From Bryobacterales bacterium (GTDB taxonomy: Bacteria; Acidobacteriota; Terriglobia; Bryobacterales; Bryobacteraceae), in contig JAFAQY010000101.1 in NCBI GenBank assembly GCA_019261985.1, positions 1-36,864 on the forward strand: a stretch of DNA of 36,864 nucleotides. The letters run 5' to 3'. Position 1 is the stretch's first letter, and each line of letters begins with the position of its first letter. Both the position numbers and the translations under genes were made by a program. Below the pieces are notes generated by a model, which was given only the letters and a program-made list of their open reading frames with translations, was not told the origin of the DNA and ran no database searches. Shown here piece after piece: positions 8,479 through 19,440 of the stretch.

Positions 8479-9276
8479 TCACGAGACCACCTCGAAAAGC
8501 CGTGCCACCTGTTGTTGCAGCCAGTGCGCGGCAAGCTGGGCGAGTTCTTCGGGATCTCCTCCCGCGAATCTCCCCGGTTTTTCCGTCCTGCCGCTGTGGC
8601 CGTTCACCAGCCACAGCGTCGCGCGGAGCTTTGCGTCGCTTGCTTCCAGACGGCCCTCCATCACAAAATCCGCGCCGCATTCGGCTGCGAATTGCCGGAC
8701 ATCGCCCACGCGGCCCATGTAACTGAGCGCGGTGGTTGGCGATACTAATTCGATTCGGCCCAGCTCTCCAAGCCGGACCGCCAACTCTTCGACGAGCGCC
8801 ATGGACTGCCGGCTCAACTCGGCCTCCGAGCGCACCGGCAGAATCAAAATGCAAGGCAGTTCGCCGCCGCTTAACCTAGGGTTATCGGCCCAAACGAAAC
8901 TGAGCACATAGCCCCCGCGATACCGGATATGAATGCGATCCCGGGCGCCCTCATTGCCGTAATATTGCGTCAGCTTTTGGCGCAACCGGCTGATCTCCTT
9001 GCGAACCAACGAATCCGCCTGAGGATCGAAATCCGCACGGCGCAAGACGCTTTCGGCGATCTCCCTTTCGGTCGGAGCGACGCCCCTCTGGTCCAGTGAC
9101 CGGTCTCCCAACCACTTGAGCAGCCTCCGTAATCGTTCGGCTCGCGCAAATGTCGCGCTTGACGTTACTTTTTCCAGATGTGCGTGGCAGAGCGGATCCG
9201 GAACTTGAACTCGGGATCCTTCGTTTCTCCCGGCGCGCGCCATAACGAGTGAAATGCCTTGAACTCCTATGCCCAT
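8479..9276 (-). CDS. Winged-helix-like regulator with C-terminal CadC/TolB-like sensor part
   Basis: Up to 265 residues (254 if the ATG at 9243 is used). Residues ~33-128 form a domain shared with the divergent gene at 9411: LLKWL followed by the pattern FDPQADSLVRKEISRLRQKL, YYG, then DRIHIRYRGGYV. This domain is common at the N-terminus of acidobacterial and planctomycete regulators with TPR or sensor modules and is thought to bind DNA. The C-terminal half (ILPVRSEAEL, LAVRLGELGRIELVSPTTALSY, GADFVMEGRLEASDAKLRATLWLVNG) matches the 'FlgO/TolB N-like' domain seen after CadC-type winged helices. No transmembrane segment is present, so it should be cytosolic. Targets are unknown; the divergent paralogue or feoAB are possible. 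Confidence 0.75.
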   Translation of the reverse strand: MGIGVQGISLVMARAGRNEGSRVQVPDPLCHAHLEKVTSSATFARAERLRRLLKWLGDRSLDQRGVAPTEREIAESVLRRADFDPQADSLVRKEISRLRQKLTQYYGNEGARDRIHIRYRGGYVLSFVWADNPRLSGGELPCILILPVRSEAELSRQSMALVEELAVRLGELGRIELVSPTTALSYMGRVGDVRQFAAECGADFVMEGRLEASDAKLRATLWLVNGHSGRTEKPGRFAGGDPEELAQLAAHWLQQQVARLFEVVS

Positions 9277-9410
9277 CGGTTGTTATTCAATTCCGCCTTA
9301 ATTCCGCGGGTTTGCTTTACTCGAATATACTAGGAAGCAGTCGGAGGTGGTATATTTCCGGCGCGGTTTCGTTCAACTCGGGGATAACGCCCCAATTAAC
9401 CCCAGAGGCG

Positions 9411-10709
9411 ATGTTACCGGAAGTGTACGAAATTACTCACGCGCTTGAGTTAATCCACCGGCAGGCGCATTTGCCTCCGGCGGAGCTTCGGTTTCTGCGG
9501 TATGTCGTCGAGCGGACTCTGGCCGGCGAGCAGGCCAAGGTGAACCAGAAGACAGTAGCCGCCGACGTTTTCGGCCTCGATCTGCTAAAGTTCGATCCCC
9601 GCGCCGATTCCACCGTTCGGACCACCGCCGCAAACCTGCGAATCAGCCTTTTGCGCTATTACGCCGGCCCAGGGCGCGCCGATAGAATAGCGATCGAGCT
9701 TCCGAAAGGCTCCTACGTGCCCCGCTTCCTCCGGCGAGCGCAACTTTCCGTCGCGGCCACAAGCCGTTTGTGGAGCGCGCGGGTGGCATTGGAATCGCGA
9801 ACCGTGTCCGGCTATGCCACCGCCATTGCTCAATTGGACTCGGTCTTGGCGGAAGCGCCAAATTTTTCGCTTGCGCTAGCGCTTAAAGCCGAATCGCTGG
9901 CCTCCCAAGCGATTCACGGATCGCGCCCGCGCCCCTGCCTGGAGCAGGCGCGCATCTGCTCGGACCGCGCTCTAGATACGACAGCGCCGGCTTGGCAGGC
10001 GTGGCTGGCGCGCGGAGCGGTTCTTCAAGCTCTCGATCTCGATTGGACGAGCGCGGAAACCGCGTACGACAACGCGCTGGAATCGAGCGGAGGCGAAGCC
10101 GCCACGCACGTCTGGTACACGGCATTCTTGGTAGGCCGCGGCCGTCCCCGGGAAGCCATCTCTATGTTGCAGCGTACAGTGGACCGCTTCGGCTACTGCA
10201 ATCCGACCTTCCTCGGCGATCTTTCCATGCTGCAAATGCTCGCGCGCGATTACACCGCCGCGCATGAGACCATACACGCGGCGCTCGCGGCCGCTCCGCA
10301 CTATTATCAACATCATTTGAATCGCGCAATTTTGCTCGAGGCGCAGGGCGATGCCGCCGGCGCGCTCCGCGAGCTTGACCAGACGCCTCTCCGCCTCCAC
10401 GAACGTCCCGTCACCTGGGGCCTGCGCGGCCTGTTCGCCGGGTTGAGCGGCAAGCCGGGGATCGCCAGCCGCCGGATCGTTTGGTTCCGAGGCATTCAAA
10501 GAACCGGACGATATATTCCTCCGAGCCAGGTTGCGGCGTGTTGGCTTGGTCTGGGCGATCTTGATGCGGCAGTACATCATCTCGAGTTGAGCGTGGAAGA
10601 TCGGGATCCCCTTGCTGTCTGGTTCCATGCATATCCGTTCTTCCGGCATTTGAACGCTCATCCAGGCTTCCAACGCCTAATCGATCGGATCGGCGTGGTG
10701 AGATATTAG
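9411..10709 (+). CDS. Winged-helix-like/TPR regulatory protein
   Basis: A 432-residue protein. Residues ~1-102 repeat the N-terminal domain of the divergent gene at 8479-9276 (FDPRADSTVRTTAANLRISL, YYAGPGRADRIAIELPKGSYV). The rest is alpha-helical with TPR-like repeats (AIAQLDSVLAEAPNFSLALALKAE, AETAYDNALE, REAISMLQRTVDRFG, AAHETIHAALAAAPHYYQHHLNRA, quoted in parts), a common scaffold for protein contacts. The frame is open from a GTG at 9249, but the ATG at 9411 has a purine-rich AGAGG before it and directly precedes the conserved domain. The 3' end overlaps the convergent methyltransferase gene by 33 bases. The ~170-base divergent promoter region holds AATTCCGC twice, 11 bases apart (9289 and 9300). 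Confidence 0.75.
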   Translation: MLPEVYEITHALELIHRQAHLPPAELRFLRYVVERTLAGEQAKVNQKTVAADVFGLDLLKFDPRADSTVRTTAANLRISLLRYYAGPGRADRIAIELPKGSYVPRFLRRAQLSVAATSRLWSARVALESRTVSGYATAIAQLDSVLAEAPNFSLALALKAESLASQAIHGSRPRPCLEQARICSDRALDTTAPAWQAWLARGAVLQALDLDWTSAETAYDNALESSGGEAATHVWYTAFLVGRGRPREAISMLQRTVDRFGYCNPTFLGDLSMLQMLARDYTAAHETIHAALAAAPHYYQHHLNRAILLEAQGDAAGALRELDQTPLRLHERPVTWGLRGLFAGLSGKPGIASRRIVWFRGIQRTGRYIPPSQVAACWLGLGDLDAAVHHLELSVEDRDPLAVWFHAYPFFRHLNAHPGFQRLIDRIGVVRY

Positions 10710-11847: not shown

Positions 11848-11881
11848 GCCCGCACAGCGGAATGCGGGCCTCGGCGCTGCT

Positions 11882-12038
11882 CAAAATAAACGGCGCTATT
11901 TTTCGACCAATTTTCAGCGCGATTTGCGCTCTTGTGTCGAAGCCGGATGTGCTGGACGGAAGCTTCGACGCGGTCCTCACATATGTGAGGGAACATTGCG
12001 CCACTTCCGGTTGGGCGCTCCAGCTTTGGATACTTATT
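11882..12038. repeat. Leader direct repeat, copy A
   Basis: About 155 bases that recur, with small changes, at 14187-14338 (copy B). Each copy lies just upstream of a secreted-protein gene. Conserved inside are three successive inverted repeats: a GCGC-based repeat near 11927-11935, TCGAAGC...GCTTCGA at about 11938-11968, and CCTCACATATGTGAGG at 11975-11990, which is a perfect 16-base palindrome. The 3' part contains the block annotated separately at 11977-12035. It may be a duplicated promoter/operator region, or the DNA of a structured RNA. Confidence 0.85.
11977..12035 (+). promoter_or_regulatory. Shared regulatory block, copy A (upstream of NHL gene)
   Basis: The pattern is TCACAT at 11977, CATT at 11994, CACTTCC at 12002 and GATACTT at 12029. 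The same elements occur with the same spacing at 14276-14334 and, with one base less between the last two, at 15330-15387 before the ECF sigma gene. GATACTT may be a -10-type element. CACTTCC sits 20 bases before it. The palindrome at the left end would suit a dimeric activator. Confidence 0.6.
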
Positions 12039-12081
12039 TTTCAGATTTGGGAACGCGTCGGACAGCAGGAGAGTACAAATT

Positions 12082-13980
12082 ATGAAGGACCTGAATCAGG
12101 GCTCTCGCGCCGCAGCGCGCGTGATATTTCTGGGACCGTTGGTGACCTTATATTGCGCTGCCCAGGTCCCGGTGTTCACGGTCACCACGGTTGCGGGAAG
12201 TGGCGGACCGCGGTCGACGGCTAATCTCTTCGCCGCCGCCGGCCTCGCCTTCGATTCCACGGGTAACCTGTATATTTCAGATGAGCAACAAAGGGTTTTC
12301 AAGCTTACACCGCAGGGGACGTTGACCGCTGTCGCCGGTGGCGGCCCAGCCAGCCCGTTTCTTGGTGATGGCGGCCCCGCGACTAACGCCGAACTGGCCG
12401 GGCCGACGGGTCTGGCAATGGATGCGTCTGGCAATCTTTACATTGCCGACACTTTGGACAATCGCATTCGCAAAATATCCTCCTCCGGCACAATCACGAC
12501 GATTGCGGGAGGCGCTTCCAGCGGTCCACTTGGCGACGGAGGCCCGGCGACGAGCGCCCTTCTCCTAAATCCAAAAGGGCTCGCGCTAGACGCCGCCGGA
12601 AACCTCTACATTGCCGACACAGGCCACAATCGCGTGCGTATGATTGCTCCCGATGGAACCATTACGACCGTCGCGGGAAGCGGAGTGGAGTGCACTACCG
12701 GGCAATGCACAGCCGCTGTTTTCGGCGATGGGGGCCCAGCCGCTAACGCAGCCGTAACTTCACCGGTCGCTATTGCTTTGGACTCGGCGACCAACCTGTA
12801 CATAACGGACCCACTGGGGTTCATCCGCAAAGTGATGAATGGCGTGATTACCACCGTAGCTGGAAACGGGAGCGTCTTCGATTACGGTGATGGAGGTCCC
12901 GGCTCCGCCGCCGGTTTATCCCCGAATCCGCAGGACTTGGCCGTCGACCGCGCAGGGACCATCTACATTTCGGACTCGGCTCACTCCGTGGTGCGCGCTG
13001 TCACTTCCGATGGGACCATCAACACGATCGCAGGGAATTACCCTGCCACGGTGGCTGCGTTTAACACGTTTCCGCCGATCGCGGCGGGTACTCCCGCGCT
13101 CAGCGCCATTATCGATCCCCAAGCTTTGGCGATAGGACCAAGTGGGAACCTATACATTTCTACAATCAACAGCGTCTTGTCTCTGGCCTCAAGCGCGGCA
13201 TCGGTCTCTCCGCCCCCCGCGGTGGCGACCAACTTTGGCGTGGCGGCAATCGAAGCAAGCAGCTTTGGCGGCGATCCCATGCGCCCGATTTCGCTCGGCG
13301 GCTGGGTAGAAATCTATGGGAACTATTTGGCGCCCGATACCCGCGCCTGGGCTGCTTCGGACTTTAACGGGTCGAACGCTCCTACCGCATTGGATGGTGT
13401 TTCTGTCACCATCGGCGGACAGCCCGCTTACGTCAGCTATATCAGCCCCGGGCAGGTGAACGTTCAAGTACCCACCGGCATTGGCACGGGCCCGCAACCC
13501 CTGGTGATTTCGACCGCCCATGGAAAGAGCCCTACCTACGCGATAACCGTCAATGCGGAAGTGCCGGGATTGCTCGCGCCGCCGGTGTTCAACATTAAAG
13601 GCGCTCAGTACGGAGTGGCGCTTTTCCCTGACGGCGTGACATACGCTCTCCCGGTGGGAGCCATTCCGGGTGTGGCTAGCCGCCCCGCGCAGCAAGGCGA
13701 CACCTTAACGTTTTATGGCATCGGCTTCGGGCCGACGTCACCAAATATTTCGGCCGGCGAGATCACACCCTCGCCAAATTCTTTAACGCAAGAACTTACA
13801 GTCTGGTTCGGCACGCCGGACGTTCCGGCCACGGTGCTCTATGCTGGCCTCGCCCCGGGAGTTGTCGGACTGTATCAGTTCAACGTGGTGGTTCCGAAGC
13901 TTCCAGTGGGCGGCGCTCAGCTAGTGATCTTCAGTCTCGGCGCAGCGGGACTAACCATTGTAACGATTGCCACCAAATAA
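12082..13980 (+). CDS. Secreted NHL-repeat protein with TIGR03437 C-terminal domain
   Basis: A 632-residue exported protein. Residues 1-27 are a signal peptide ending CAAQ. Residues ~35-370 contain about six NHL beta-propeller repeats, each with the pattern GLA(L/M)DASGNLYIADT..NRIRKI..GTITTIAG, separated by GDGGPA stretches (quoted in pieces). Residues ~395-632 are the C-terminal domain of the TIGR03437 family, with GGQPAYVSYISPGQVNVQVP and YAGLAPGVVGLYQFNVVVP. This domain is especially abundant in Solibacter-type acidobacteria and its function is unknown. An AGGAGAG ribosome binding site precedes the ATG at 12082. The block at 11977-12035 lies upstream. Probably a cell-surface or extracellular binding protein. 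Confidence 0.92.
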   Translation: MKDLNQGSRAAARVIFLGPLVTLYCAAQVPVFTVTTVAGSGGPRSTANLFAAAGLAFDSTGNLYISDEQQRVFKLTPQGTLTAVAGGGPASPFLGDGGPATNAELAGPTGLAMDASGNLYIADTLDNRIRKISSSGTITTIAGGASSGPLGDGGPATSALLLNPKGLALDAAGNLYIADTGHNRVRMIAPDGTITTVAGSGVECTTGQCTAAVFGDGGPAANAAVTSPVAIALDSATNLYITDPLGFIRKVMNGVITTVAGNGSVFDYGDGGPGSAAGLSPNPQDLAVDRAGTIYISDSAHSVVRAVTSDGTINTIAGNYPATVAAFNTFPPIAAGTPALSAIIDPQALAIGPSGNLYISTINSVLSLASSAASVSPPPAVATNFGVAAIEASSFGGDPMRPISLGGWVEIYGNYLAPDTRAWAASDFNGSNAPTALDGVSVTIGGQPAYVSYISPGQVNVQVPTGIGTGPQPLVISTAHGKSPTYAITVNAEVPGLLAPPVFNIKGAQYGVALFPDGVTYALPVGAIPGVASRPAQQGDTLTFYGIGFGPTSPNISAGEITPSPNSLTQELTVWFGTPDVPATVLYAGLAPGVVGLYQFNVVVPKLPVGGAQLVIFSLGAAGLTIVTIATK

Positions 13981-14186
13981 GTACATGATCTTTGCGATGG
14001 CGCATTGGATCACTTCACAGCCCCGGTCTCTTTCTCGATCCTGGCATTGATGGAAGCCAGCGCGGGAAATCACGCGGGGGCGAAGGCGCGGGAAGGAAGT
14101 GATAATGCGAAACTGTCGCTGTTCGTTTGATGATGTGTCTCCTCGCGGCCACGCACAATACATCGCCGCGCGATCTCGACGACATT

Positions 14187-14338
14187 CAAATAAATCTTCG
14201 TTTTTTACCATTTTCGGGCGCGATTCGCGCTCTTGTATCGAAGCCGGATGCGCGGACGAAGCTTCGGCGCGGTCCTCACAAATGTGAGGGAACATTGCGC
14301 CACTTCCGGTTCTGGGCGTTCTGCTTGGATACTTGTTT
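14187..14338. repeat. Leader direct repeat, copy B
   Basis: This is the second copy of the ~150-base leader at 11882-12038. The palindrome is CCTCACAAATGTGAGG at 14274-14289, with one central mismatch, and the GCGC repeat is GCGCG-ATT-CGCGC. It occupies the 3' part of a 375-base gap (13981-14355) between the NHL gene and the next gene. The first 200 bases of that gap show nothing I can support. Confidence 0.85.
14276..14334 (+). promoter_or_regulatory. Shared regulatory block, copy B
   Basis: TCACAA at 14276, CATT at 14293, CACTTCC at 14301 and GATACTT at 14328 reproduce the spacing of copy A exactly. The downstream gene starts 21 bases after GATACTT, with a strong AAGGAGG at 14345-14351 in between. 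Confidence 0.6.
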
Positions 14339-14355
14339 CACATTAAGGAGGACGT

Positions 14356-14721
14356 ATGAGTGGAAAACGGCTGTTGCTGTTTGGGGCGGCACTGCTGGCC
14401 GCGCCATGGGCGCATGCCCAGCCTGCCCGTTTGGGAAAAAACCTGATCGTCAACGGCGACGCCGAAGCCGGCCCCACGCTCCCCGATGTTCCGGCGCGGG
14501 ACGTTGCGATTCAACAGAACCAATTGGCGACACCCGTTCAGTTCCTGTTCAACTCCACGCCGGTTACGCCCGCATATTTCGGCTTGGCCCCGGGCTACAC
14601 CGGCGTGTATCAATTCAACGTCGTAGTTCCCAACGTCCCGGCCAATAACGCCCTGCCGATTTCCTTCAATCTCGGGGGAGTGAAGGGCGCCCAGACGCTC
14701 TACATCGCAGTTGGAAATTAG
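14356..14721 (+). CDS. Short secreted protein ending in a partial TIGR03437 domain
   Basis: A 121-residue protein with a clear signal peptide (residues 1-22, ending AHAQ). It continues with NLIVNGDAEAGP, a motif usually found at the start of much larger carbohydrate-binding or PEP-CTERM-type secreted proteins. From about residue 58 it matches the last ~60 residues of the NHL protein's TIGR03437 domain (FGLAPGYTGVYQFNVVVPNV beside YAGLAPGVVGLYQFNVVVPK). The central part of a typical family member is missing, so it is either a mini-protein or the product of an internal deletion. A strong ribosome binding site and an intact frame suggest it is expressed. It probably forms an operon with the next gene, 17 bases away. 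Confidence 0.8.
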   Translation: MSGKRLLLFGAALLAAPWAHAQPARLGKNLIVNGDAEAGPTLPDVPARDVAIQQNQLATPVQFLFNSTPVTPAYFGLAPGYTGVYQFNVVVPNVPANNALPISFNLGGVKGAQTLYIAVGN

Positions 14722-14738
14722 AACTCAAGGAGGACGCC

Positions 14739-15290
14739 ATGCAAAAGTATTCAGGAATCCGCGGCCGGCGGATAACGAATTCATCGGCCGGACTTGCCGC
14801 GTTCCTATTTGCGATCACCGGCGCGCTTGGGCCTGGGCTTCACGGACAGGACGTTTCGCAGCGTGCCCTCGACAACGCGCACAATTTCTTGAAAACCAAG
14901 GATCGCGGCAACGATATTCTCGGCTTCCTTCATTTCGGAACCGACTATCATGGCCACGAATTCCGCCAGGCACTGGCCACAGGCCGCGGCAATTTCGCTC
15001 TCGTCTACCGCTTTCACTGGAGTGACGACGACATAACCGACGCCGAGTTCCTGTGCGATTCCCGCGGCGACATAAACGACATCAGGATAATGTCCACCAG
15101 CGCCGTCATCAACCGGCCGTTCTTCCTCGCCGACGCCGCGGTCCAGATATTGGGTAATTTCCTGATCGACGCGGCGAAGGACAAGCTAAGCCCCGCCGAG
15201 CGCAAAATCATTCAAAAGTTCGTCGACAATGCCGACGCCAAAGGGATGCTGATCTGGTGGCTTAGATTCCAACGGGTTTGGGGAGGATGA
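14739..15290 (+). CDS. Secreted protein of unknown function
   Basis: A 183-residue protein with a basic N-terminus and a hydrophobic segment (AGLAAFLFAITGALGPGLHG), most likely a signal peptide. An AAGGAGG ribosome binding site precedes the ATG, 17 bases after the truncated TIGR03437 gene. The mature part has no motif I recognise. It is soluble-looking, with an acidic middle (HWSDDDITDAEFLCDSRGDI) and a helical C-terminus (LSPAERKIIQKFVDNADAKG). Position before the sigma/kinase operon and behind the shared regulatory block suggests membership in that regulon. Function unknown. Confidence 0.75.
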   Translation: MQKYSGIRGRRITNSSAGLAAFLFAITGALGPGLHGQDVSQRALDNAHNFLKTKDRGNDILGFLHFGTDYHGHEFRQALATGRGNFALVYRFHWSDDDITDAEFLCDSRGDINDIRIMSTSAVINRPFFLADAAVQILGNFLIDAAKDKLSPAERKIIQKFVDNADAKGMLIWWLRFQRVWGG

Positions 15291-15329
15291 AAGCGCCCCA
15301 ATCCAATCCCGCGCGTCACTCACAATCGG

Positions 15330-15387
15330 TCACATCCGTGATGTCACATTCGATCACTTCCAATCCGTTTAGCAGTAGCCGATACTT
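15330..15387 (+). promoter_or_regulatory. Shared regulatory block, copy C (upstream of ECF sigma gene)
   Basis: TCACAT at 15330, CATT at 15347, CACTTCC at 15355 and GATACTT at 15381. The first 32 bases match copy A at 23 positions without any gap. Only the CACTTCC-GATACTT distance differs, by one base. The flanking leader sequence is not conserved here, so the conservation is confined to the block. GATACTT ends seven bases before the ATG of the sigma gene. Confidence 0.55.
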
Positions 15388-15393
15388 GCATCC

Positions 15394-16056
15394 ATGCACG
15401 CCGCACAGAGCCGCCGGCCCCCAGGTCAAAAGGAGGCTGCACGGGACGCTGCCGACGACGGGCGAAGTTGTGCCGCGCCGTTATCGGAAACCGGGGCCGA
15501 AGAAATCACGCGCTTGCTCCACGAGGCCCGGCGCGGCAACCGCGCCTCCGCGGACAGGTTGTTGGAAGCCGTGTACACGGACCTGCGAGGCATCGCCCGC
15601 CGCTCCATGGCCGTCGAGCGGCCGGATCATACCCTCCAGCCGACGGCGCTGGTTCATGAGGCCTATCTGCGGATTTTCGAAGGCGCGCCGGTCGATTGGC
15701 AAAGTCGGGCACATTTTTTCGCCGTCGCCGCTTCGCAAATGCGGCGCGTCCTGGTGGATCACGGCCGCGAATTTCGCGCCGCCAAGCGTGGGCGTGGCTT
15801 GAAGGTTGCGCTTGAGGACAGCCGCCATGCCGCGCCGCTGCCGGAATGCGATATCGAGGCCGTGGACGAGTTGCTCGACCGACTTCAGCGCGCCGACGCG
15901 GAGGCGGCGCGTGTGGTCGAGCTGAAGTTTTTCTCCGGCTTGACGGACAAGGAAGTCGCGGAAGCGATGCAGGTTTCGCACTCCACTGTCCGGCGTCACT
16001 GGATTTTTGCGCGCGCGTGGCTGGCCCGCCAGCTCACGCCGAAAAAATCTGACTAA
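15394..16056 (+). CDS. ECF-type RNA polymerase sigma factor (TIGR02999 type)
   Basis: A 220-residue alternative sigma factor. Region 2 spans residues ~36-128, with LLHEARRGNRASADRL, HTLQPTALVHEAYLRI and HFFAVAASQMRRVLVDH, hallmarks of the TIGR02999 (Sig-70_X6) group. Region 4 is residues ~150-212, with FFSGLTDKEVAEAMQVSHST. The first ~35 residues are not conserved. The only in-frame ATG is 15394. A strong AAGGAG near 15427 lies inside the frame without a usable start behind it. Members of this group in acidobacteria and planctomycetes commonly adjoin serine/threonine kinases, as here. No anti-sigma factor gene is seen. The shared block at 15330-15387 suggests autoregulation. Confidence 0.9.
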   Translation: MHAAQSRRPPGQKEAARDAADDGRSCAAPLSETGAEEITRLLHEARRGNRASADRLLEAVYTDLRGIARRSMAVERPDHTLQPTALVHEAYLRIFEGAPVDWQSRAHFFAVAASQMRRVLVDHGREFRAAKRGRGLKVALEDSRHAAPLPECDIEAVDELLDRLQRADAEAARVVELKFFSGLTDKEVAEAMQVSHSTVRRHWIFARAWLARQLTPKKSD

Positions 16057-16102
16057 TTTCATCGCCGTTTTCGCAAATGGATTTGAGAGGAGACCGAAGA
16101 AC

Positions 16103-17449
16103 ATGCTTAAGCAAAGCCTGATCCCGTTCGCATTGGCCGGCATGATCGCCGCCCAGACCCCGGCGCAAACCACTGCGCCCAAGACTCCAGTGGCGGCAAA
16201 GCCCGCCGCCCCATCGCGCGTGGACGAGGTCATTCAACTCGTTAAGGGCGGAATGTCGGAGCCGCGGGTGATCAGAACCCTCCAAAACGAGAACAAGCCG
16301 ATCAACCTGACGACCGCCGACCTGTTGAAGCTTCAAAAAGCGGGAGTATCGGAGAACATCATCAACGTGATGGAGAACCCGAGCGCTGGTGCTGCGCCGC
16401 CGGTTGCCGCCTCCGCTTCCGCGCCTTCATCCAAAGCGCCCGCGGCCGTGGCTGAAACCGGCTCCGCCTGCCCCCTGCCGGCAGCTGTTTCGTCGGCCCC
16501 CGGATCTAAGAAGCGGCGCTTGGCGGTGGAGGCTTTCGATTACTCGGCGGTCCAGACCCAGGTCACGGCGATGTTCAACAACAACGTCAATATCGGCCAG
16601 GGAATTCGAGCCATGCTGACCGAAAGGATGGGTGAATCCAAATCGGTCGTGCTGTTGGAGCGGGAAAAGCTCAAAGTCATTATGGCCGAACAGGATTTTG
16701 GCGCAACCAATCGCGTAAAGCAGGGGAAACAAGCCAAGATCGGCCAAATCACCGGCGCCGATGCTTGGCTGTTGGGAGACATCGTGATCTTCGGCCGGGA
16801 TGACACTCGTAAGAAAAACGGAGCGGCCGGAGCTATACGCTCTGTCCCACTGGTTGGACCTCTCGGCGGCAAAATTGCCGACGCCAAGAAGACGGATAAA
16901 GCCGTCGTTGCCATCAATCTGCGGCTCGTCGACGCGGAAACGGGAGAGGTAATCGAGAACGGGACGGCGGAAGCGCGGGGCGAATCCAAGCGCACCAGCA
17001 CGGACTGGAGCGCAATCGCGGGCAATTGGAAAGGCGCGGCCGCCGCCAGCTCAAGCATGACGAGCTCAAATTTCCAGGAGACAATCATTGGCGAAGCCAC
17101 CAAGGATGCAGTGGACAAAATCGCCGAGTTTATCGATGGGAAGATCCCGGCGCTCGCCGCGAAATCCCGAACGATTGAGGGCCTCGTCGCGAATATCGAT
17201 GGCTGCACCCTGTACATTTCCGCTGGAGCCAACGACGGTGTACAGGTCGGGGATCGTTTCGAGATTCACAAAATCTTAAAGCCGGTGATCGATCCTGAGA
17301 CGAAAGAGGTGATCGACAGGGAAACGGTCAAAGTAGGCGAATTGGTCGTCGGCACGGTACGTGACAAAGTTTCCATCGGCCAGTACGGCGGTCCGCCCCT
17401 TTCGGCCACGTATGACAAAGGTTATGCGGCCCGGCTGGTGACGCAATAG
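16103..17449 (+). CDS. Secreted CsgG-like protein
   Basis: A 448-residue exported protein with a signal peptide (residues 1-~22, IPFALAGMIAAQTPAQ). Residues ~38-93 are a short helical module (VDEVIQLVKGGMSEPRVIRT, then LLKLQKAGVSENIINVM) common in acidobacterial proteins. After a Pro/Ala-rich linker, residues ~137-330 match the CsgG family (RRLAVEAFDYS, then LTERMGESKSVVLLEREKLK and ITGADAWLLGDIVIFG), whose founder forms the outer-membrane pore for curli. The C-terminal ~90 residues (GLVANIDGCTLYISAGANDG, VQVGDRFEIHK) look like a small beta domain. No lipobox cysteine is visible, unlike E. coli CsgG. Start ATG at 16103 follows AGGAG. It sits between a sigma factor and a kinase. Confidence 0.8.
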   Translation: MLKQSLIPFALAGMIAAQTPAQTTAPKTPVAAKPAAPSRVDEVIQLVKGGMSEPRVIRTLQNENKPINLTTADLLKLQKAGVSENIINVMENPSAGAAPPVAASASAPSSKAPAAVAETGSACPLPAAVSSAPGSKKRRLAVEAFDYSAVQTQVTAMFNNNVNIGQGIRAMLTERMGESKSVVLLEREKLKVIMAEQDFGATNRVKQGKQAKIGQITGADAWLLGDIVIFGRDDTRKKNGAAGAIRSVPLVGPLGGKIADAKKTDKAVVAINLRLVDAETGEVIENGTAEARGESKRTSTDWSAIAGNWKGAAAASSSMTSSNFQETIIGEATKDAVDKIAEFIDGKIPALAAKSRTIEGLVANIDGCTLYISAGANDGVQVGDRFEIHKILKPVIDPETKEVIDRETVKVGELVVGTVRDKVSIGQYGGPPLSATYDKGYAARLVTQ

Positions 17450-17475: not shown

Positions 17476-19440
17476 ATGGACACCGCTCGGTTCCTGCGCC
17501 TGCGCGAAATTTTTGATCGCGCCCTTCAACTGCCCGATAGCGAGCGCGAAGCATTGCTGGCTCGCGAATGCGGAGGCGATCCGGCGCTTCAGGCGGAAAT
17601 GCGCGAGCTGTGGGCCGCCCACCTGGCCGCGACCTCGTCCGCACCGGCCCAGTCAGCCCCGTCGGGCGAGCGGTTGATCGGCCCCTACCGCATTCAAGGA
17701 CCTTTGGGAGAGGGCGGAATGGGAACCGTTTATCTCGCCGTCCGCGACGACGGCGCGTTTCAGAAGCAAGTCGCCCTCAAAGTGCTGCGGCGGGATCAGG
17801 CATCGGAGGACCTGGTCCGCCGCTTTCATCAGGAGCGGCAAGTGCTGGCGAATCTCGATCACGCCAATATCGCGCGCATTCTCGACGGAGGCCAAACGCC
17901 GGAAGGGCTGCCGTATTACGTAATGGAGTACGTTCAGGGCGTTCCGCTGGATCACTTCTGCGATCGACGCAAAATCGATCTCGCGGGCCGCGTCCGACTG
18001 CTTCAGGAAATCTGCCGCGCCGTCCAGTACCTACACGACAACCTCGTCGTGCATCGCGATCTGAAGCCCTCCAACATCCTGGTGACGGAAGAGGGCAACG
18101 TCAAGCTACTGGATTTTGGCATCGCCAAATTGCAGATTCCCGCGGCGGGCGAGCTTACCGTCCCAAATAACCGCATGCTGACGCCCGGCCAAGCCAGTCC
18201 GGAACAGCTCTCCGGCGCTCCCGTAACGCGCGCGTCCGATATCTATTCGCTTGGCGTCATTCTCTATCAACTCCTCACGGGCGTGCTGCCTTTTGCGGAT
18301 CCGGCGGCCAAGCTTCACTCGGACCCGTTGCCGCCAAGCCGGCGCATTCGCGAAGACCTGAGCCGGACTCCCGAAACCACGAATCAGCTTCGCAAGCGCC
18401 TCGCTGGCGACTTGGACAATATCGTGCTTATGTGCCTGTGCCGCGATCACCGGCAGCGCTACGCCTCGGCGCGCGAGCTCGCGGATGATCTTCAGCGCTA
18501 TTTGGACGGACGTCCAGTCGCCGCGCGCCCCGGACACGTCACCGAGAGAGCGGTGAAGTTTTTGCGGCGTAACCGCGCCGCCGCAGCGGTTGTCGCGCTG
18601 GTGTTGGCATTGGGCGGATTCGGGGCGTGGCAAACGCTCCGCGCCCAAATCGAGACGCACCGCGCTACGGCTCGCGAAACGGAAATCGCGCGCCTGCTGG
18701 ATCGGTTAAACGCGGGCAGTTCCCGCGCCGCTCCGGGCGGGTCGCGGACCCAGGACCTCCGCAAGCTCCGCCAGGCGATTGAGCGCGATTTCCCGGCTGC
18801 ATTCGCTGCGCGCCCGGGCGCCACGCCCGAGATGGGGGAACTGCTCCGGCGCAGCCTCGCATATCTCGACGCTCTTCAATCCCTCGCGCCACAGGACGCA
18901 GAACTGGTCAGCGAACTTGTCACGACCTATCGGGCTTTGGGATCTGTCGCTCAGCCGGCCTATCCCGACATCGCGCAGGCCGCGTTTCAAGGCGCGGACG
19001 CGACGCTCGCCGCCGCCGCGCCGCCCGCCCCTCAAACGGTGAGGCCGCGCACGGGACGCCAGCCGGCGTCAACGGAGCCGGCTGCGGCCCAGGCCGATTG
19101 GAGGCGTCTCACCCTGCCGGATTCGGCCACCCCCTCAGCGCAGGAAACTCCGCAAAGCGCGCCTGCCGATCCCGGTGGGCTGAAAGAGCTAAGGTCGCGC
19201 ATGGGGGATGTCACAGCGAAAGCCGCTTCGGCGGACGATATGTATGTCTGGCTCCGGCAAACCGCGCAATCCCAGGGGCAAACGCTCGCTTCCGATGTCA
19301 CTGCCGCGTACAGCCGAATGAAGATGGCAGTCGAAGACGCTCAGAGAGATCTGGATGCCGGTCAGTTCGACTCGGCTCGCGAGGAGTTGCAGAAAGCCGA
19401 CGCATACGCGAACAGAATCCTCAAAGCCGGCGGACGCTGA
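17476..19440 (+). CDS. Membrane-anchored serine/threonine protein kinase
   Basis: A 654-residue Hanks-type kinase. Residues ~1-64 form a helical N-terminal extension seen in acidobacterial kinases (LREIFDRALQLPDSEREALL). The kinase domain spans ~68-350: GEGGMG (78-83), Lys102, HRDLKPSN (193-200), DFG (213-215) and SPEQ in place of APE. A single membrane helix follows at about 367-388 (AAAAVVALVLALGGFGAW). The C-terminal ~260 residues should be periplasmic and are helical, rich in Ala and Pro, without a recognisable sensor domain. The activation segment is slightly unusual (TPGQASPEQ instead of the commoner T..YASPEQ). It is third in the operon, 26 bases after the CsgG-like gene. It could link envelope status to the sigma factor (inference). 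Confidence 0.92.
   Translation: MDTARFLRLREIFDRALQLPDSEREALLARECGGDPALQAEMRELWAAHLAATSSAPAQSAPSGERLIGPYRIQGPLGEGGMGTVYLAVRDDGAFQKQVALKVLRRDQASEDLVRRFHQERQVLANLDHANIARILDGGQTPEGLPYYVMEYVQGVPLDHFCDRRKIDLAGRVRLLQEICRAVQYLHDNLVVHRDLKPSNILVTEEGNVKLLDFGIAKLQIPAAGELTVPNNRMLTPGQASPEQLSGAPVTRASDIYSLGVILYQLLTGVLPFADPAAKLHSDPLPPSRRIREDLSRTPETTNQLRKRLAGDLDNIVLMCLCRDHRQRYASARELADDLQRYLDGRPVAARPGHVTERAVKFLRRNRAAAAVVALVLALGGFGAWQTLRAQIETHRATARETEIARLLDRLNAGSSRAAPGGSRTQDLRKLRQAIERDFPAAFAARPGATPEMGELLRRSLAYLDALQSLAPQDAELVSELVTTYRALGSVAQPAYPDIAQAAFQGADATLAAAAPPAPQTVRPRTGRQPASTEPAAAQADWRRLTLPDSATPSAQETPQSAPADPGGLKELRSRMGDVTAKAASADDMYVWLRQTAQSQGQTLASDVTAAYSRMKMAVEDAQRDLDAGQFDSAREELQKADAYANRILKAGGR

Follow-up and report, generated by a model that had tools for sequence, protein, structure and literature searches.

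Which factor reads a short block of DNA that recurs before the gene of an extracytoplasmic function (ECF) sigma factor and before two neighboring transcription units of a Bryobacterales bacterium, a soil acidobacterium? The block lies on contig JAFAQY010000101.1 (GenBank assembly GCA_019261985.1); this whole contig, 36,864 nucleotides of a 6.49-Mb draft genome with a completeness of 98.83%, was analyzed and is called the window here. A first-pass annotation had asked whether the sigma factor itself or a separate dimeric activator uses the block. According to our in silico analysis, it is fairly likely that the block is the promoter module of the sigma factor encoded from position 15394, which would activate its own sigma-CsgG-kinase operon and control the adjacent genes for TIGR03437 proteins. 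The two boxes CACTTCY and SATACT follow the recognition helix of the sigma factor, which favors the sigma factor as reader, while a partly kept dyad next to them may serve a second protein; the question is thereby narrowed.

The block and its copies

The block reads TCAC-N4-GTGA-N5-CATT-N4-CACTTCC-N20-GATACTT in copy A (11977-12035, plus strand), 46 nt upstream of a gene encoding an NHL/TIGR03437 protein. Copy B (14276-14334, plus strand) has the identical pattern and lies 21 nt upstream of a truncated TIGR03437 gene. Copy C (15330-15387, plus strand), 6 nt upstream of the ATG of the sigma gene, has the same pattern with a spacer of 19 bases. The four words recorded in the first-pass annotation and their gaps (11, 4 and 20 bases in A and B; 11, 4 and 19 in C) are exact, as is the match between A and C at 23 of 32 positions, and the recurrent block is confirmed as a real observation. 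The surrounding sequence had been described as not conserved, which holds for C but not for A and B: the region upstream of the NHL gene (11900-12039, plus strand) is duplicated at 14201-14338 (plus strand) with 86% identity. A and B are therefore counted once, which leaves two independent copies plus a degenerate fourth, copy D (13994-14042, plus strand; GCGA..CATT..CACTTCA-N19-GATCCT), in the intergenic region that follows the NHL gene, about 300 bases upstream of the truncated TIGR03437 gene. Copy D has 3 mismatches of 21 with the spacing of copy C (mean 0.00 in 100 shuffles). The best ungapped segment shared by A and C scores 14, above the maximum of 13 in 1000 dinucleotide shuffles, none of which reached it. 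When the upstream regions of the window were compared in 210 pairs, one unrelated pair reached an equal score, so the weight rests on the joint pattern rather than on the score alone.

In its own genome, the block is confined to this locus. Neither the 32-base pattern, with as many as 3 mismatches allowed, nor CACTTCC-N15-25-GATACTT matches anywhere but at A, B, and C, and each reversed control gives 1 hit. A genome-wide regulon was rejected because the genome holds no further copies, and the block thus points to a local circuit. The scan of relatives that the annotation had proposed likewise gives no regulon beyond the locus. Across the 236 further genomes of the family, 12 places match the 32-base pattern with 1-2 mismatches (reversed control, 1), so an excess of this part over chance among these genomes may exist. 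At none of the 12 places do 5 or 6 letters of GATACT follow at the expected distance (a gap of 18-21 gives at most 4 of 6), and 10 of them lie within stop-free stretches of 284-830 amino acids (aa), the other two (L066 and L073) within stretches of 123 and 131 aa. The fact that 11 of the 12 fall in open reading frames (ORFs) of at least 100 aa is hardly informative, since the stop-free stretches over A, B, and C are themselves 131-180 aa long. One of these places, L073:1501-1532 (minus strand) in genome G220, is a one-mismatch match to the 32-base block with a 4-of-6 box at a gap of 19 and without a long ORF over it. When the region upstream of the NHL gene, with copy A, was searched in 60 other genomes, only short matches were found (best E-value 0.0016, over 31 bases).

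Conservation before orthologous sigma genes

The first-pass annotation had tied its idea of autoregulation to copy C being kept before orthologous sigma genes. At an E-value of 1e-53, the sigma factor has no match in the 22 other genomes of the same genus. In the family, where up to 12 candidates were scored per genome, the best matches by E-value are in G153 (68%), G035 (60%), G125 (55%), and G081 and G077 (both 53%). The region upstream of the sigma gene contains CACTTCT-N19-GATACT in G153 and CACTTCC-N19-CATACT in G081 and G077. Two further genera thus keep GTGA-N13-CACTTCY-N19-SATACT before their ortholog of the sigma gene, with diverged flanks, and the idea of autoregulation survives. Of the autoregulated regulon for envelope or secreted proteins proposed at the same time, the autoregulation stands, with the core kept in G153, G081, and G077 and with TIGR03437-type genes linked, while the regulon beyond the locus does not.

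In a gapless alignment of copy C with the G153 and G081 sites, three-way identity extends beyond a single base only in CGTGA, CACTTC, and ATACT. The two boxes aside, all three sequences agree in 15 of 126 columns, 5 of which make up CGTGA. The elements GTGA, CACTTC, and ATACT at fixed spacing are identical at 15 of 15 positions, against 9 in the best of 200 shuffles, with the positions chosen after the alignment had been viewed. Copy A has GTGA, CACTTCC, and ATACT as in these three sequences, with a spacer one base longer. CACTTCY-N19/20-SATACT occurs once in each whole genome of G153, G081, and G077, every time directly 5' of the sigma gene. Across the six sites, the first position of the presumed -10 box is never T.

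The promoter motif was then set against the recognition helix in 126 PF07638-type sigma loci: 33 from relatives and the own genome (a subset of more matches listed), 12 from the family, 80 from named genomes (the best 80 of 566), and G466. Four pairs among these look like one genome present in two collections, with zero-length branches, and a few loci have upstream DNA shortened by a contig end. The helix signature SH[ST]TV[RK]R was found in 5 of the 126 loci, those of the window, G153, G081, G077, and G466, all of which read SH[ST]TVRR. The motif stands before 4 of these 5 loci, G466 being the exception, and before none of the 121 others. With up to 2 mismatches to the boxes of the window, the 24.9 kb of upstream DNA of the 124 other sigma loci contains 3 sites, all at the orthologs, where 0.51 were expected. 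In these sequences, CACTTCY/SATACT tracks the recognition helix, whereas the dyad is only partly conserved. Because the two boxes stand before the sigma gene and its neighbors, are conserved with the sigma factor and match its helix, the module looks like an autoregulated ECF promoter.

Probable reading of the block by the sigma factor, and rival explanations

In the mechanism that we propose, regions 4 and 2 of the sigma factor would read CACTTCY near -38 and SATACT near -12, across a spacer of 19-20 nt. Copy C would then provide self-activation of the sigma-CsgG-kinase operon, and copies A and B would place the neighboring TIGR03437 genes under the same sigma factor. The sigma gene (15394-16056, plus strand) passes both family cut-offs, with 175.2 bits for PF07638 (cut-off 21.1) and 199.3 bits for TIGR02999 (cut-off 126.15), and encodes the helix SHSTVRRHW. 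Its region 2.2 lacks the acidic DAED and reads QPTA, with Thr84 at the position of the phospho-site, so the protein is probably inactive until phosphorylated. QPTA aligns with QAED of SigL, Thr falling on Glu, in a weak profile hit (E-value 0.009); a phmmer search at an E-value of 0.01 gave no solved structure of a close relative, and only weak profile hits were obtained, to SigL and others. Q82, T84, and A85 are invariant in 7 aligned sigma factors; among the 126 loci, QPTA is found in 85 and Q[AST]TA in 28.

These residues, together with a linked kinase gene and Pfam hits of the three operon proteins that include no anti-sigma domain, resemble ECF43 systems (EcfP/PknT of Vibrio parahaemolyticus and EcfK/PknS of Xanthomonas citri), which also lack DAED and have a Thr at the phosphorylated position; the likeness is one of region 2.2 residues and kinase linkage, not a placement by published ECF classification models. 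In ECF43 sigma factors, the linked kinase phosphorylates a Thr of this kind, which restores RNA polymerase binding (PMC8999054; PMC13147305), with STTA in region 2.2 of EcfP (PMC8999054) and a group consensus of QTTA (PMC13147305). By analogy, the Hanks-type kinase of the operon would probably phosphorylate Thr84, and the phosphorylated sigma factor would act at copies A, B, and C. In contrast to ECF43, a CsgG-domain gene sits between the sigma and kinase genes, and the predicted targets are TIGR03437 proteins. Transcription starts, sigma binding, and phosphorylation are what we infer in this scheme.

No sigma-70 promoter (TTGACA-16/18-TATAAT-like) is predicted at A, B, or C; the sole such site within 11850-15450 starts at 14889 (mean of 1.7 in shuffles). 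A -10 box that begins with G or C, as SATACT does, is a poor -10 for sigma-70. In the window, G081, and G077, the sigma protein begins with MHA shortly after the presumed -10, a start-codon context that fits a promoter at this place. ECF autoregulation is already known; according to PMC8103513, about 55% of ECF sigma factors with predicted regulons are autoregulated, and canonical ECF promoters have AAC in the -35 and CGT in the -10 element. The module resembles canonical autoregulated promoters in its two boxes before the sigma gene itself and few target genes.

Several observations weigh against the sigma factor as reader. Unlike canonical ECF promoters, the boxes are CACTTCY and SATACT with a spacer of 19-20 nt, and the AAC and CGT elements are not found. 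The distance between -35 and -10, start to start, is usually shorter in ECF promoters than the 26-27 nt measured here. In copy C, 6 nt separate GATACTT from the ATG of the sigma gene, and no other ATG is available, which would leave the sigma mRNA leaderless or nearly so. A and B stem from a single duplication and, besides C, leave one independent target promoter only. A relaxed pattern gives 7 sites in 8 genomes (A, B, C, the three ortholog promoters, and one in G150) against 7 for the reversed control, and a looser one 19 against 35; because the counts do not exceed the controls, the place of the motif, and not its number, is informative. When a stricter, tandem form is required, C and the G153 site still fit, but A, B, G081, and G077 do not. 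Finally, G153 contains a possible second site, CACTTCC-N21-GATACC, 1 nt before the ATG of a 233-aa gene 3' of the kinase gene, a geometry unsuited to a -10; this site may be due to chance.

The orthologs that lack the motif count on the same side. G466 comes from a different family; it shares the helix, the DHG of region 2, and the sigma-CsgG-kinase order, but has no block before its sigma gene. The 20 kb around the gene contain no site with fewer than 2 mismatches, and the relaxed pattern is absent from its contig. It is a clear exception because its helix is identical. No other G466-type ortholog was found at an E-value of 1e-64 in 398 genomes drawn from its family. G125 has no block and the helix STATVRRHW, in the same six-row clade (Shimodaira-Hasegawa-like approximate likelihood ratio test, 95), and its sister G035 has no block and the helix NIAKFRREW. 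A search of G035, by 6-base words only, revealed no alternative motif common to the sigma gene and a linked 248-aa gene. The same motif thus stands before the sigma gene of the window, the genes behind A and B, and the sigma orthologs of G153, G081, and G077, but not before those of G466, G125, and G035. Among the five lineages of the sigma clade, as read from a quick tree, it is present in that of the window and two others and absent from G125 and G466.

The lack of the motif before the G466 ortholog would agree with a different, unlinked factor as the reader, with the nearness of the block to the sigma gene being incidental, and the reader of the block is predicted from sequence. We consider this improbable: CACTTCY-N19/20-SATACT, found once each in G153, G081, and G077, always lies before the sigma gene, and its presence follows the recognition helix in 4 of 5 loci. 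That the copies are only duplicated DNA with no role in regulation, A/B being a duplication and C and D older remnants, agrees with the clear duplication of A/B and the degenerate state of D. Against it stands the core itself, which other genera keep upstream of their sigma orthologs despite diverged flanks, and we give this reading hardly any credence.

The alternative that deserves more attention, while still unlikely, is a separate dimeric activator that would read TCAC-N4-GTGA, perhaps with the CATT/CACTTCC repeats, and recruit RNA polymerase. GTGA stands 17 bases before CACTTC without change in C, G153, G081, A, and B, and the dyad [TC]CAC-N4-GTG[AG] is present in A, B, C, G081, and G077 (slightly shifted in G077), but G153 has lost the left half and keeps GTGA only. 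The center of the dyad lies about 58 bp before the presumed start, which recalls class I activator sites, where CRP binds TGTGA-N6-TCACA at -61.5. The half-sites here are inverted relative to those of CRP and do not occur genome-wide, and the dyad does not qualify as a CRP site. For a general activator, further sites would be expected in the genome, none of which were found, and SATACT would be a poor -10 for the sigma-70 polymerase that it would recruit.

A candidate for such a protein is the TPR protein encoded at 9249-10709 (plus strand), which has a conserved N-terminal region and whose 60% identical ortholog lies directly 5' of the sigma gene in G153. No ortholog was seen in the G466 and G035 stretches; the contigs of G081 and G077 are not long enough to show whether one is present. 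Its AlphaFold model has a mean predicted local distance difference test (pLDDT) score of 62.7, with 30-63 in the N-terminal region; because the N-terminus is left unresolved in this model, a DNA-binding role is a lead only. The gene forms a divergent pair with the one at 8479-9276 (minus strand), with related N-terminal regions, and the divergent relative is present in G153 too. For the sigma factor as the reader of the two boxes, TCAC-N4-GTGA would be a separate accessory site that may be used by a second, possibly dimeric, regulator.

The operon, its neighbors, and the possible circuit

The sigma gene is followed by genes for a CsgG-domain protein (16007-17449, plus strand), whose true start is probably more internal, and for the Hanks-type Ser/Thr kinase (Pkinase; 17476-19440, plus strand). 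The sigma-CsgG-kinase linkage is found again in G153, G081, G077, G035, and G466, the kinase having been detected by tblastn in G077 and G035. CsgG-like sequence occurs twice 3' of the sigma gene in G035 (L080:13652-15871, minus strand) and in G153 (L076:7295-9427, minus strand). Sigma factors of this family are numerous in Acidobacteria; relatives were matched in 36 of 61 related genomes at an E-value of 1e-20, some with more than 20 copies, and none of the viral contigs encodes one.

The predicted target of copy A encodes a 632-aa NHL beta-propeller protein with a C-terminal TIGR03437 domain (12082-13980, plus strand), and that of copy B a short protein of 121 aa with the last part of TIGR03437 only (14356-14721, plus strand); secretion of both was judged by eye. 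The second gene 3' of copy B (14739-15290, plus strand) encodes a protein of 183 aa that matches no Pfam or NCBIfam family, and a search of eleven ortholog stretches gave no relative. With a profile of four TIGR03437 domains, TIGR03437-like sequence was found near the sigma gene in 6 of 10 loci (the window, G153, G081, G077, G035, and weakly G117), not in G125, G180, G063, or G466; the 20 kb examined in G466 contain no TIGR03437-like ORF. Only 2 of the 80 named loci have such a neighbor, a loose contrast because these loci span several phyla. Acidobacteria encode many TIGR03437 proteins. In G153, G081, G077, and G035, two tandem proteins next to the sigma operon, one of them TIGR03437-like, end in a region of about 82 aa with a conserved Cys and 44-46% identity (L076:2413-4136, minus strand; L077:1-1665, plus strand; L078:6338-8129, minus strand; L080:6266-8057, minus strand). 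This region has no match in the window.

In the literature searched, with subscription papers outside the search, we found neither a promoter for such a sigma factor nor this circuit, and no description of how TIGR03437 proteins or acidobacterial sigma factors of this family are regulated. The promoter described here differs from the canonical AAC/CGT type, and the small self-switching circuit probably controls surface or secreted proteins. More tentatively, and with less confidence than we place in the promoter module, the locus can be pictured as a self-contained, sporadically inherited acidobacterial signaling cassette, in which a kinase-activated ECF sigma factor with its own non-canonical code (GTGA-N13-CACTTCY-N19/20-SATACT, matched by the helix SH[ST]TVRR) would control only itself, the CsgG protein, and the linked TIGR03437 proteins. 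The predicted pair of sigma factor and promoter, with orthologs that have the motif and others that lack it, makes promoter specificity and the role of TIGR03437 directly testable. If the cassette is real, the TIGR03437 family would gain a first handle on its regulation, and QxTA sigma factors a promoter code.

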